From: Candidatus Nitrosopelagicus brevis
GTDB taxonomy: Archaea > Thermoproteota > Nitrososphaeria > Nitrososphaerales > Nitrosopumilaceae
Length of the DNA stretch: 64,000 bases
Direction: 5' to 3'
NCBI RefSeq assembly: GCF_000812185.1
Contig: NZ_CP007026.1
Span: forward strand, 681,222 to 745,221
Position numbers and translations under genes: made by a program. This document shows, in pieces, positions 17,748 through 55,216 of the stretch (positions within the stretch are counted from its first letter, which is position 1; every line of letters starts with the position of its first letter). Below the pieces are notes generated by a model. It was not told the DNA's origin. It saw only the letters and a list, made by a program, of their open reading frames with translations, and ran no database searches.

Positions 17748-17757
17748 ATTAATATTG
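17748..17757 (+). promoter_or_regulatory. TATA-like box of the double SDR gene
   Basis: caattaatat-type AT-rich box centred about 30 bp before the TTG at 17783, placing the predicted transcription start near 17779, inside the palindrome that follows. Confidence 0.45.
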
Positions 17758-17762
17758 CAATT

Positions 17763-17781
17763 CTGACAAATTTTTTGTCAG
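17763..17781. promoter_or_regulatory. perfect palindrome at the SDR transcription start
   Basis: CTGACAAA-TTT-TTTGTCAG is a perfect 8-bp inverted repeat around 3 bp, ending one base before the TTG start codon and covering the predicted transcription start. A repressor bound here would block polymerase. RNA from it could also fold as a hairpin, but the leader would be too short for one if transcription starts inside it. Confidence 0.5.
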
Positions 17782-17782
17782 A

Positions 17783-19531
17783 TTGAAGTTCGAAAATAAA
17801 GTTGTTTTAATCACAGGCAGTGGAACCGGCATCGGAATGACGGTTGCAAAGAAATTCGTAGAAAATGGAGCCAGCGTCGTCATTTTAGGCAGAAGAAAGG
17901 AACCCCTTGATAGTACATCAGAAATGCTAACAAAAATCATCAATGAAAAAAACTCAAAAGGATTTGTAAAGATATTTTCAGGAGTAGATGTCAGTGATGA
18001 GAAATCAGTTACAGAGATGTTTGATGCTTTAAAAAATGAAGGTATCAACATAGATGTAATTGTAAATAATGCAGGAGTTTCAGGACCAGTCACATGTTTC
18101 CCACATGCACCATTAGAAGATTTTAGAAGTACAGTCGACATACATCTAACTGGAACATTTTGGACTTCCGTACAAGCATTAAAGGTAATGAAAGAAGGCG
18201 GCAAGATTATTACAATTTCAACATTCTTTGCTGAAGAAAGACCATTAGAGCAAAGACCATACAGATTCAGAGGCCCGTATACCGCATCACAAGGTGCAAA
18301 GAATAGATTAGTTGAAGCAATGTCTTGGGAATTAACAGAAAAAGGAATTATTTCGATTGGAACAAATCCAGGCCCAGTGCATTCAGATAGAATTTACAAA
18401 ACGGTATATCCAAAAGCTGCATCTGAATTTCTCAGAGTAAGCGGATTTGAAGATTTAACACCTGCAGAAGTTGAGGCTGCAAATAAAGAGATTGTAGGAT
18501 TACTTGGTGAAGATGAGGATACAATCAAGAATGGAATTAAAGCTGCAGCAGAAAAATTAGGAAAACAAGAATCAACATTTACAAATTTACTCAATAAAGT
18601 ACAAAGTATTGCTGAGAAAATTCAAAAAAATACATCAACAATGATTGCTGATCAACAATTCCTATCACAAGATCAAGTTGCAACAACAGTTCTAACATTA
18701 TCAGATGATCAACAAGCAAAAATTCTAAATGGAAAAATTATTCCAGGAGACAGAGTTTTCTATCCAGTAAGATCACATATTACATCAGTACCTGAGACTG
18801 TAAAACAATATGATTATTCATCAAAAATTGCAGTACTAACAATTGATGCAACTGATGAAGAAGATGCAAAGAAAGCTGAAGAAATTGCAACTAACGTACA
18901 AGCTAACGGAGGTCAAGCAATTTGTTTCATTTCAGACAAGTGTTCAAAAGAGATTCAAGATTCAATTGGAAATAAATTCCATTCACATGTAATAGATTTT
19001 TCAAATAATGAAGAAATTACAAGATGGTTCAACACAGCTAAATCAAAAGGAGACATTGAAGTATTCATACACATTACCGGCAAAGTTCCAACAATTTCAA
19101 AATTAACAGAATTATCTAGAAGTGAATGGGATGAGTTAACAGACAAATTCATCAATATTCCAGCTACTGTTAGTCAAAACGCAATGGGAATTTTTGTTCC
19201 TAATGGTTCGGAGGATCCTAGACTTTTCAAAGATGCAAAAGGACGTATCGTAATAATTGGTCCAGACCTCCCACATGGAAAGAAAATAGGAGGCGGAGAA
19301 AGAGCCAAAGTAGAAGTTTTCAGAGGAGCGCTAAGACCATTTGCAACGACAATTAACCAAGAACTAAGTGATGTTTTGAAATCAAATGTCAGAACATTCC
19401 TAGTATTAGCAGGAACAGTAGACGGTAAAGAGCCAAACAATGCCAGAATTACAGACACGGTGAATTATCTAATATCTGATGATTCAAAATCTAGTGCAGA
19501 AGTAATTTTCTGTCCTGATGAATCTAGATAA
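17783..19531 (+). CDS. double short-chain dehydrogenase/reductase (SDR) protein
   Basis: A 582-residue protein of two SDR-like halves. Half 1 (1-240) begins MKFENKVVLITGSGTGIGM with the TGxxxGIG cofactor loop, then VNNAGVSGPV and catalytic-site ITISTFF. The YxxxK motif reads YTASQ, so Gln replaces the catalytic Lys; a Lys lies three residues later. A helical insert (250-300) precedes half 2 (about 330-582), which keeps the fold outline (IAVLTIDATDEEDAKKAEE, GRIVIIGPDLPHGKK) but has no glycine motif. Start TTG 17783. Tandem-SDR proteins include the Chloroflexus malonyl-CoA reductase, but the missing Lys makes a matching reaction doubtful. The next gene is 3 bp downstream. Confidence 0.75.
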   Translation: MKFENKVVLITGSGTGIGMTVAKKFVENGASVVILGRRKEPLDSTSEMLTKIINEKNSKGFVKIFSGVDVSDEKSVTEMFDALKNEGINIDVIVNNAGVSGPVTCFPHAPLEDFRSTVDIHLTGTFWTSVQALKVMKEGGKIITISTFFAEERPLEQRPYRFRGPYTASQGAKNRLVEAMSWELTEKGIISIGTNPGPVHSDRIYKTVYPKAASEFLRVSGFEDLTPAEVEAANKEIVGLLGEDEDTIKNGIKAAAEKLGKQESTFTNLLNKVQSIAEKIQKNTSTMIADQQFLSQDQVATTVLTLSDDQQAKILNGKIIPGDRVFYPVRSHITSVPETVKQYDYSSKIAVLTIDATDEEDAKKAEEIATNVQANGGQAICFISDKCSKEIQDSIGNKFHSHVIDFSNNEEITRWFNTAKSKGDIEVFIHITGKVPTISKLTELSRSEWDELTDKFINIPATVSQNAMGIFVPNGSEDPRLFKDAKGRIVIIGPDLPHGKKIGGGERAKVEVFRGALRPFATTINQELSDVLKSNVRTFLVLAGTVDGKEPNNARITDTVNYLISDDSKSSAEVIFCPDESR

Positions 19532-19534
19532 AAA

Positions 19535-19996
19535 ATGGAAAAATTCAAAACAATAAAGGTAGGAAATTCCTTTGTTTCGACTACAAGTATTTCAAAAAAA
19601 GAATTAGATGAATATCTGGGTTTTTCAAGAATAAAAAATGCAATGTTTGAGATTGATTCAGGAAAAGACGAGAACCGAGTAATTTCTGGAAGAGCAATTA
19701 TTTCACGAATGGAGGGAGAGTTTACAAGATTAAGACAGATTTATGGAAATTATATTGTGTTGTATGGAATTGACGGAGATGAAGAATGGAAAAATAGACA
19801 AACCAGATTTGTCCGACCGGTATATACTGATCAAGTCTTACGACTCAAGTATACAATTTCAGATAAAAGAGATATCGATGATGAATATGGTTTGATTAGC
19901 GTGGATTTTGAGGCTACATTTGAAGATGGAGAATTAGTTTTAACCTCAAAGAAAAATCTCTATAGAATTAAAAAAGAGCCTCCATCGAATCGATAA
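19535..19996 (+). CDS. MaoC-like hotdog-fold protein
   Basis: 153 residues. KTIKVGNSFVSTTSISKKEL at the start and RPVYTDQVLRLKYTISDKR, then YGLISVDFEATFEDGELVL, match the strand pattern of MaoC/NodN hotdog dehydratases. The catalytic Asp-His signature (HxxDP-like) is not evident, so it may bind an acyl-CoA-like ligand without hydration. It follows the double SDR by 3 bp, suggesting a joint acyl-CoA or polyketide-like step; this is inference. Overlaps the TauE/SafE gene tail by 29 bp. Confidence 0.6.
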   Translation: MEKFKTIKVGNSFVSTTSISKKELDEYLGFSRIKNAMFEIDSGKDENRVISGRAIISRMEGEFTRLRQIYGNYIVLYGIDGDEEWKNRQTRFVRPVYTDQVLRLKYTISDKRDIDDEYGLISVDFEATFEDGELVLTSKKNLYRIKKEPPSNR

Positions 19997-31822: not shown

Positions 31823-32836
31823 CTATAATCTATTAGTAATTTCTTTAGTAAATTCATGCGTGGATTTTTCTCCACCAATATCCTTAGTTGTAATGCCAGA
31901 TTTTATCAAATCCAATACTACATCTTCAAGTTTCTTTCCAGCAGAGATGCACTCAGAATCATTATGTTTCGAACCTAACCAATCAAGCATCATTTTTGTA
32001 GATAGTATGAATGAAGAAGGATTTGCAATCTGTTTTCCAGCAATATCAAATGCAGCGCCATGAACAGGCTCAAATAAACCAAAATTATCGCCCAAATTTG
32101 CAGCAGGAGCCATGCCTAATCCTCCCACAACTTGAGAAGACTCATCAGATAGTATATCACCAAACAAGTTTGTAGTGACAATTACATCAAATTCATGAGG
32201 GGCACGAATCAAATTCATAGCACAGGCGTCAACGTACATCTGATCAAAGGTAACGTCAGGATAGTCTTTTGATACATCCTCACATACACGAGCAAAAAGA
32301 CCATCTGTTATCTTCATGACATTTGATTTATGAACACATGTAACCCGTTTTTGTTGACTTCTATCCATTGCTGTCTCAAAAGCATGTTTTGCGATTCTCT
32401 TGGAAGCTTTTTCACTAATTATTCTCAATGCGACAGCAGTATCATCTACTTGAAATTCTTCACCTGTGTATAGATCCTCTGTATTTTCTCTAACAATTAC
32501 TAAATCAACATCATCTCTTAGTGCAGGAGTATTTGGGTATGATTTTGCAGGACGGATATTTGCGTACAAATCTAATTTTTGTCTTAATGCAACAATGACA
32601 TCCTTAGCACTTTCTCCAACAGGGGCTTTTAAACATGCATCAGATGATTTGATCGATTCAAAGACATCATCAGGTAATGCTTTTCCAGTTTTTTCGAGTG
32701 CAGCATCTCCAGCTACAAGTGAATTGACATTAAATTTAATGTCAAATTTGTCACTGATTGTATCCAAAATCGTATTTACAGATTCTGATAATTCAGGACC
32801 AATTCCATCACCAGTAATTAGAGAAATATTATACAT
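31823..32836 (-). CDS. leuB: isopropylmalate/isocitrate dehydrogenase family enzyme, probably LeuB
   Basis: About 337 residues from ATG 32836. Beta-decarboxylating dehydrogenase fold: ISLITGDGIGPEL at the start, NANIRP-like LYANIRPAKSYPN, VRENTEDLYTGEE and the Lys/Asp active-site strand near TNLFGDILSDESSQV. Adjacent leuA points to 3-isopropylmalate as substrate; homoisocitrate or isocitrate remain possible for this family. Last gene of the ilvB-ilvN-leuA-leuB operon. Confidence 0.88.
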   Translation of the reverse strand: MYNISLITGDGIGPELSESVNTILDTISDKFDIKFNVNSLVAGDAALEKTGKALPDDVFESIKSSDACLKAPVGESAKDVIVALRQKLDLYANIRPAKSYPNTPALRDDVDLVIVRENTEDLYTGEEFQVDDTAVALRIISEKASKRIAKHAFETAMDRSQQKRVTCVHKSNVMKITDGLFARVCEDVSKDYPDVTFDQMYVDACAMNLIRAPHEFDVIVTTNLFGDILSDESSQVVGGLGMAPAANLGDNFGLFEPVHGAAFDIAGKQIANPSSFILSTKMMLDWLGSKHNDSECISAGKKLEDVVLDLIKSGITTKDIGGEKSTHEFTKEITNRL

Positions 32837-54271: not shown

Positions 54272-55216
54272 ATGGATACAGTAAGAGTTCCCAAAGTAAT
54301 TCAATTTGGGGAAGATGCATTATCACAAGCTGAATATCCAAAAAATGCTTTAGTTGTTACAACAGTACCTCCAGAATTATCTGACAAATGGTTAGGAAAA
54401 ATGGGTATACAAGATTATATCTTGTACGACAAAGTTCAACCAGAACCATCAATTGAAATGGTTAAAGAGGTAATTGACGAATACAAATCCAAAAACATTA
54501 GTGCAATGATTGGATTAGGAGGAGGAAGTTCAATGGATGTTGTCAAGTATGCAGCTTCTGAAATGGGTGTAGAAAAAATTCTAATTCCTACAACATTTGG
54601 AACTGGTGCAGAAATGACAACATATTGTGTTCTAAAGTTTGATGGAAAAAAGAAATTGCTTAGAGAGGACAGATTCCTTGCAGATAGAGCAGTAATTGAT
54701 TCATACTTTATGAACGGTACACCAGAACAAGTTATCAAAAGTTCAGTATGTGATGCATGTGCACAAGCAACAGAAGGTTATGACAGTAAACTTGGAAATG
54801 ACCTTACCAAAACATTGTGTAAACAAGCATTCGATGTATTGTATGACGCAATCATGAATGATAAACCAGAGAATTATCCATATGGCTCCATGTTATCGGG
54901 TATGGGCTTCGGAAATTGTTCAACTACGTTAGGACATGCATTATCGTATGTCTTTTCAAATGAAGGAGTGCCACATGGTTACTCACTTTCATCATGTACT
55001 ACAGTTGCCCACAAACATAACAAATCGATATTTTATGATAGATTCAAAGAAATTATCGAAAAAATGGGATTTGATAAATTAGACCTCAAAGCAGATGTTA
55101 ATCAAGCTGCAGATGTTGTGATGACAGACAAAGGTCATTTAGATCCAAACCCAATTCCAATTTCAAAAGAAGATGTTGTAAAATGTCTCAACGATATTAA
55201 AGCCGGAAATCTCTAA
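54272..55216 (+). CDS. iron-containing alcohol dehydrogenase, probable malonic semialdehyde reductase
   Basis: 314 residues, short for the family (usually about 380). NAD-binding site MIGLGGGSSMDVVKYAA, PTTFGTGAEMTTYCVL, and metal ligands in TLGHALSYVF and GVPHGYSLS. A similar short iron ADH of N. maritimus reduces malonic and succinic semialdehydes in the 3HP/4HB cycle, and this is the best-fitting role. The reduction in size comes from a shortened C-terminal helical domain. Own promoter. Confidence 0.82.
   Translation: MDTVRVPKVIQFGEDALSQAEYPKNALVVTTVPPELSDKWLGKMGIQDYILYDKVQPEPSIEMVKEVIDEYKSKNISAMIGLGGGSSMDVVKYAASEMGVEKILIPTTFGTGAEMTTYCVLKFDGKKKLLREDRFLADRAVIDSYFMNGTPEQVIKSSVCDACAQATEGYDSKLGNDLTKTLCKQAFDVLYDAIMNDKPENYPYGSMLSGMGFGNCSTTLGHALSYVFSNEGVPHGYSLSSCTTVAHKHNKSIFYDRFKEIIEKMGFDKLDLKADVNQAADVVMTDKGHLDPNPIPISKEDVVKCLNDIKAGNL

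Follow-up and report, generated by a model that had tools for sequence, protein, structure and literature searches.

Which protein reduces malonyl-CoA in ammonia-oxidizing archaea (AOA), and could the double-SDR protein encoded at this locus be that enzyme? AOA rank with the most abundant autotrophs of sea and soil. Their CO2-fixation cycle is called the most energy-efficient aerobic one in the literature, and papers from 2018–2020, at least in their accessible parts, assign no gene to several of its reductases. Specifically, the malonyl-CoA reductase reaction was measured in N. maritimus extract with no gene identified for it, and the same holds for the acryloyl-CoA, succinyl-CoA, and succinic semialdehyde reductases, which are also active in extract (accessible text of PMC6038301, 2018). 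The malonyl-CoA reductase gene of AOA was still unidentified in 2020 (accessible text of PMC6964070), and the part of a 2026 marker resource available to us (PMC12894919) enters the Sulfolobales and Chloroflexus enzymes under a KEGG orthology number but has no such entry for the thaumarchaeal variant. The accessible parts of PMC8287830, PMC7845616, PMC9802188, PMC8613188, PMC7490402, PMC12246640, PMC11917034, and PMC12400630 name no AOA malonyl-CoA reductase gene, and no assignment was found in our literature search, which covered few subscription journals. An earlier reading of this DNA, made from sequence only, had likewise regarded the thaumarchaeal gene as not settled.

The window, i.e. 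the whole stretch of 64,000 nucleotides that was analyzed, is part of a genome assembled as a single contig of 1,232,128 bp. The sequence-only reading had described a double SDR protein in it, and the open reading frame at 17783–19531 (+) indeed encodes 582 aa with two SDR-like halves. Its start codon is TTG, which upstream comparison places one codon inside the ATG used by most Nitrosopumilaceae relatives. Both motifs reported for half 1 are present (TGSGTGIG at residues 11–18 and NNAGVS at residues 95–100), and half 2 (about 345–582), for which an SDR-like outline without a glycine loop had been proposed, comes out in the model as a further Rossmann/SDR-like domain, one that lacks TGxxxGxG. 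The protein scores 128.8 bits with PF00106 (cut-off 26.6) and thus belongs to the SDR superfamily. The features of the gene are:

17783–19531, + strand: double-SDR protein, proposed stand-alone SDR-type malonyl-CoA reductase, 582 aa (open reading frame and fold match over residues 1–582)
17813–17836, + strand: dinucleotide glycine loop TGSGTGIG, residues 11–18
17891–17896, + strand: R37-R38 after strand 2, with R37 aligned to Arg616 of the Roseiflexus enzyme in a printed alignment
18143–18145, + strand: His121 at the Asn position of the SDR tetrad, invariant
18221–18223, + strand: Thr147 at the position of Ser731 (MCR-C) and Thr165 (MCR-N), by alignment
18260–18271, + strand: Tyr160-x-x-Arg163, the counterpart of Tyr743/Arg746 (MCR-C) and Tyr172/Arg175 (MCR-N), by alignment
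18278–18301, + strand: Tyr166-T-A-S-Gln170-G-A-Lys173, with the catalytic Tyr, Gln in place of the catalytic Lys, and a Lys one helical turn on; Gln and Lys invariant
18368–18397, + strand: PGPVHSDRIY motif, residues 196–205, close to PGPVEGDRL of bacterial MCR
18386–18652, + strand: helical extra region, residues 202–290, at the place of the MCR-C extra domain or lid (secondary structure of the model)
18815–19528, + strand: second SDR-like domain without a glycine loop, residues 345–582 (model and profile)

The sequence-only reading had proposed a structure prediction with a search against tandem-SDR families. The AlphaFold2 model, built from 46 sequences, has a mean pLDDT of 84.6 and a pTM of 0.88, with a loop beside the active site (residues 149–160) at pLDDT under 50. 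When this model is compared with the PDB using Foldseek, chains of bacterial malonyl-CoA reductase (MCR) occupy ranks 1–24 and 26, i.e. 25 of the 26 top matches, with TMq of 0.66–0.73. The exception at rank 25 is peroxisomal MFE-2, whose (3R)-hydroxyacyl-CoA dehydrogenase part (2et6) also consists of two tandem SDR domains but gives a much weaker whole-length match (TMq 0.56). VIA likewise places MCR at ranks 1–19 (Z 30.4–32.3), with 482–514 residues aligned across the full model. Its top row is 8hi6, MCR-N with NADP and semialdehyde, although MCR-N and MCR-C are tied on fold (Z 32.3 vs 31.9).

Searches by profile or by single sequence also return MCR chains as the first PDB matches (8hjw and 8hi4, E 1e-29 to 6e-46), and these matches fall in both SDR1 and SDR3. 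Per single domain, however, ordinary SDRs equal or beat MCR (e.g. 4iuy at 92.2 bits vs 85.1 for SDR3), so membership in the MCR group rests on architecture, fold, and motif, not on sequence score. A profile of SDR2 alone matches ordinary SDRs (best E 2e-6), and the best 60 of its 224 matches comprise these and one designed protein, with no MCR. The archaeal protein shares with the MCR halves of Chloroflexus aurantiacus and Roseiflexus castenholzii a catalytic SDR followed by a noncatalytic one and the fold over the whole length; it also shares the Tyr-x2-Arg-x2-Tyr and PGPVxxDR motifs, and the malonyl-binding Tyr-Arg pair is thus present. It differs from the bifunctional bacterial enzyme in being a stand-alone single half of 582 aa, archaeal and limited to AOA families in the genomes searched, with Gln for Lys, His for Asn, and an invariant Lys at Tyr+7. 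By fold and architecture, it is very likely that the double-SDR protein is homologous to one half of MCR.

In Roseiflexus MCR-C, Tyr743, Arg746, and Tyr749 contact the malonyl end of the substrate, Arg616 binds NADP, Ser731, Lys753, and Arg799 are among the essential residues, and a Lys753Ala change abolishes activity (accessible text of PMC10470521). Y160, R163, and Y166 of the archaeal protein occupy the Tyr743, Arg746, and Tyr749 sites, and T147 takes the Ser site, where its identity agrees with Thr165 of MCR-N. The pair R37-R38 suggests a preference for NADPH, and the helical extra region may be the same element as the MCR-C lid, judging from the model. MCR has CoA-binding arginines in its extra domain (Arg785 and Arg799) and Arg1164 in SDR4; the archaeal protein has conserved R218, R514, and R518 besides its helical insert, any match of these to the MCR residues being tentative.

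The unusual feature of this active site is the residue that replaces the catalytic lysine (Lys753 in the C half and Lys182 in the N half of MCR). Half 1 reads YTASQ instead of YxxxK, with Y166 as the catalytic Tyr, as had been read from the letters. The alignment with the MCR N half is gapless from this Tyr to the PGP...DRI motif, and in the alignment with the C half Gln170 falls on Lys as well; Gln170 is therefore truly at the Lys position. Thus, where the bacterial enzyme has Y-A-V-S-K-A-G-Q, the archaeal one has Y-T-A-S-Q-G-A-K, i.e. the invariant Lys173 at Tyr+7 stands where MCR-C has Gln. Compared with the classical N-S-Y-K tetrad, Lys is replaced by Gln170 and Asn by H121, the latter in 36/36 and 46/46 sequences of two alignments (A1 and A2, of 36 and 46 chosen sequences, respectively).

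The earlier reading had asked whether the Gln is conserved in orthologues, and we find it in all 78 orthologue rows and all 80 named loci, none of which has a standard YxxxK, as well as in 36/36 sequences of A1 and 46/46 of A2. These four sets overlap and hold a few duplicate genes: L001, an incomplete duplicate entry of the window locus, is left out of the 78 rows, in which some genes appear twice (e.g. G031 as L024/L077 and G034 as L022/L079), while several named loci are likely from the same assemblies as the sample genomes. Y160, R163, and Y166 are invariant in A1 (36/36) and A2 (46/46). More generally, no variation is seen in the Tyr, the Thr, the Tyr-Arg pair, or NNAG, and very little in the glycine loop and the active-site loop. 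The mean consensus fraction in A1 is 0.74 for half 1 vs 0.57 for half 2.

Within the order, the orthologue is present in 143 of 200 genomes with completeness of 85 or more, and archaeal AmoA in 140. Both genes occur together in 139 genomes, neither in 56, and 5 genomes disagree, in counts compiled by hand, like those for aldehyde dehydrogenases and Fe-ADH below, from match lists that do not name every genome lacking a match. Fisher tests take no account of relatedness, and no argument here rests on them. The five consist of 4 genomes with the orthologue and no AmoA (G130, G183, G224, and G230), all from families that otherwise have AmoA, and 1 genome (G175) with AmoA and no orthologue. All orthologues in this sample are confined to 4 families (f1, f2, f3, and f8), of which f2 is probably Nitrosocaldaceae. 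The co-occurrence with AmoA is not specific, because the AOA core holds about 344 genes (accessible text of PMC7490402). Among 397 genomes of the phylum, 85 have a match and 83 of these are members of the order; outside it no orthologue appears in this sample, and the two matches cover SDR1 only. The best 80 of 545 relatives in a contig scan are named as AOA or as thaumarchaeal, or simply as "archaeon". The viral contigs searched hold no relative, and among plasmids 102 records have SDR matches, with none covering 80% of the query and no bacterial single-half homologue.

Which other gene of this genome could encode the reductase? To our knowledge, CoA-acylating malonyl-CoA reductases are aldehyde-dehydrogenase-like, Asd-like (in Sulfolobales), or MCR-like. 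The aldehyde dehydrogenase family PF00171 is absent from this closed genome, with 14/14 control genomes positive, and it is not among the Pfam matches of the double-SDR protein itself. Across the genus it is absent from 30 of 31 genomes, this one included, the exception being a 63% complete bin (G002). Across the order sample it is lacking in 16 of 200 genomes, of which 11 (this one and 10 more, with the single-contig G000, G156, G031, and G036 among them) are f1 genomes that have both the double-SDR gene and AmoA. Only two PF01118 genes exceed the cut-off: one scores as ArgC/LysY and adjoins LysX- and LysZ-like genes, and the other (L161) is the archaeal Asd (TIGR00978 387.7 bits, cut-off 301.2). 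Finally, four further SDR genes exceed the PF00106 cut-off on their own score (L170, L171, L172, and L174), and L175 barely reaches it, only together with its neighbors. The four further SDR proteins that were translated have 215–277 aa and a single domain, so 17783–19531 is the only double SDR found in the genome. A probable gene for the next step of the cycle lies about 35 kb away in the window:

54272–55216, + strand: iron-containing alcohol dehydrogenase (Fe-ADH), PF00465 match

From its sequence, this gene is probably the counterpart of the malonic semialdehyde reductase, and it would be equivalent to Nmar_1110. An Fe-ADH that fits this function is found in 133 of the 200 genomes, of which 130 also have the double-SDR gene and 3 do not. 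The double-SDR gene occurs without it in 13 genomes (6 of f2, 1 of f3, G232, and 5 of f8). In this sample, none of the double-SDR carriers of f2 (six genomes) and f3 (one genome) has an Fe-ADH match.

The sequence-only reading had raised the lead of a tandem-SDR malonyl-CoA reductase, for which fold, motif, phyletic pattern, and elimination provide strong support. The double-SDR protein, with its unusual active site, is the best candidate we found for the AOA malonyl-CoA reductase, and we consider it moderately probable that it is a stand-alone SDR-type enzyme catalyzing this step of the thaumarchaeal HP/HB cycle. Perhaps it also reduces succinyl-CoA. This assignment is weakened by the loss of activity of Roseiflexus MCR upon Lys753Ala, given that Gln stands here, and by the His at the tetrad Asn.

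We infer substrate, cofactor, and mechanism as follows. SDR1 would bind NADPH, Tyr160 and Arg163 would hold the malonyl carboxylate beside Tyr166 and Thr147, and the latter two would hold the thioester carbonyl; hydride transfer to this carbonyl would then release CoA, which the helical insert and the noncatalytic SDR2 may clamp. Gln170 takes the place of the lysine by which SDRs normally bind the nicotinamide ribose; it could form a hydrogen bond to this ribose but not carry protons. This may be enough when the group expelled is a thiolate rather than an alkoxide, and would fit an enzyme that goes no further than the aldehyde. The positive charge may instead come from Lys173, i.e. from a Lys/Gln swap relative to MCR-C. 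The resulting semialdehyde would next be reduced by the Fe-ADH whose gene starts at 54272. A more ambitious version, in which one SDR enzyme serves both malonyl-CoA and succinyl-CoA through a rebuilt His-Thr-Tyr-Gln relay with the Lys moved by one helical turn, as a relative of the Chloroflexus enzyme that evolved apart from the Asd-type one of Sulfolobales, is doubtful as a whole. The gap left by the missing reductase now has a specific candidate. If the assignment is true, AOA and Chloroflexus use related enzymes for malonyl-CoA reduction, whereas Sulfolobales do not, and the active site would widen what an SDR can do without the canonical lysine.

The closest rival is an alcohol dehydrogenase like the MCR N half, acting on malonic or succinic semialdehyde, which we regard as unlikely. 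It would fit the top VIA row (8hi6), the Thr147 shared with Thr165 of MCR-N, and the seven f2 and f3 genomes that carry the double-SDR gene with no Fe-ADH match. The gap in f2 agrees with the accessible text of PMC5797428, according to which N. cavascurensis is without Fe-ADH and SDRs with about 30% identity to the Chloroflexus enzyme were proposed for that step. This is the nearest published idea that we found; the short-chain alcohol dehydrogenases it refers to may include the double-SDR orthologue, although it concerns one species and the next reaction only, i.e. malonic semialdehyde reduction. However, 130 of the 143 genomes with the double-SDR gene also have a fitting Fe-ADH, the helical insert seems longer than expected for a domain of the MCR-N type, and such an assignment would leave malonyl-CoA reductase without a gene in genomes that lack aldehyde dehydrogenases. 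That the protein instead catalyzes another missing reduction of the cycle, either of succinyl-CoA alone or of acryloyl-CoA in the manner of an enoyl reductase, is still less probable. Both steps are also without genes in the accessible text of PMC6038301, and Y166 and K173 are invariant at the Tyr-x6-Lys spacing found in FabI, but the whole fold is that of MCR, the gapless alignment with MCR-N puts Gln at the Lys site, and a Tyr-Arg malonyl clamp would be useless for acryloyl-CoA. K173 was rejected as the canonical Lys, as the alignment, which is gapless there, would then have to contain a 3-residue deletion.

The alternative put forward together with the reductase in the sequence-only reading was a ligand-binding pseudoenzyme. 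Such a protein would bind NADP(H) or acyl-CoA as a sensor or scaffold, and we give this a similarly low probability. In its favor, two of the four tetrad positions are changed in all sequences. Yet the catalytic half is the more conserved one, its active-site loop hardly varies, and the catalytic Tyr and Thr, the Tyr-Arg pair, and NNAG do not vary at all, which makes a pseudoenzyme less likely, and the gene is retained in genomes as small as 0.8 Mb (G034) and 1.23 Mb. Finally, the single Asd (L161) might reduce malonyl-CoA as a moonlighting activity while the double SDR does something else. The malonyl-CoA/succinyl-CoA reductase of Sulfolobales is an Asd relative. That enzyme resembles the double-SDR protein in proposed reaction and pathway position, and differs in belonging to an unrelated fold family of which this genome has no third PF01118 member over the cut-off. 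Against such a role, L161 scores as an ordinary Asd equivalog and is the sole Asd of a genome that would need one for amino acids; we consider this very improbable. A stand-alone malonyl-CoA reductase stays our preferred function for the double-SDR protein.

Two elements lie just upstream of the gene:

17749–17757, + strand: A+T-rich, putative TATA-like element, about 27–30 bases before the start codon
17763–17781, no strand: inverted repeat CTGACAAA-TTT-TTTGTCAG, not conserved, at chance level

A similar TATA-like element stands near the same place in Nitrosopumilaceae orthologues, and the one at 17749–17757 would act as such here. The earlier reading had placed the gene under a repressor because of the perfect palindrome at its start. 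The palindrome does lie just before the TTG start and in fact extends to 17762–17782 (9-bp arms and a 3-bp spacer), but a repressor is not supported. Specifically, the window holds 16 inverted repeats (arms of at least 8, spacers of 0–6, nested ones counted apart), and five simulations under a first-order Markov model gave 11–21; most congeners have broken arms, and the element is absent outside the genus. Its chance frequency and lack of conservation therefore give no support for a repressor, and we reject it as an operator. The proposed search for further copies of CTGACAAA-TTT-TTTGTCAG found none elsewhere in the genome. A longer element, the perfect 22-base inverted repeat TTGACATTAAATTTAATGTCAA, is located at 32724–32745.

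The gene that follows was described earlier as a hotdog-fold gene 3 bp downstream, and both the spacing after the double-SDR stop and the fold, which is MaoC-like in the model, are as described:

19535–19996, + strand: MaoC-like hotdog protein, 153 aa, adjoining the double-SDR gene in most Nitrosopumilaceae loci examined

Its similarity to MaoC is weak by sequence (E 2.5e-4) and clear by model fold. The catalytic motif of MaoC is Asp/His, and none is obvious in this protein. It does have a helix, GEFTRL, that hardly varies, and the motif GNxxxxxGxDGD. We rejected the hotdog gene as an obligate partner, since it is not adjacent to the double-SDR gene across all AOA, i.e. not in the f2, f3, and f8 loci, in Cenarchaeum, or in several Nitrosopelagicus loci. 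In some Nitrosopumilus and Nitrosarchaeum loci (L089, L092, and L107), the spacing that flanks the SDR gene is about 1–2.5 kb wider than in relatives, and something has therefore been inserted there.
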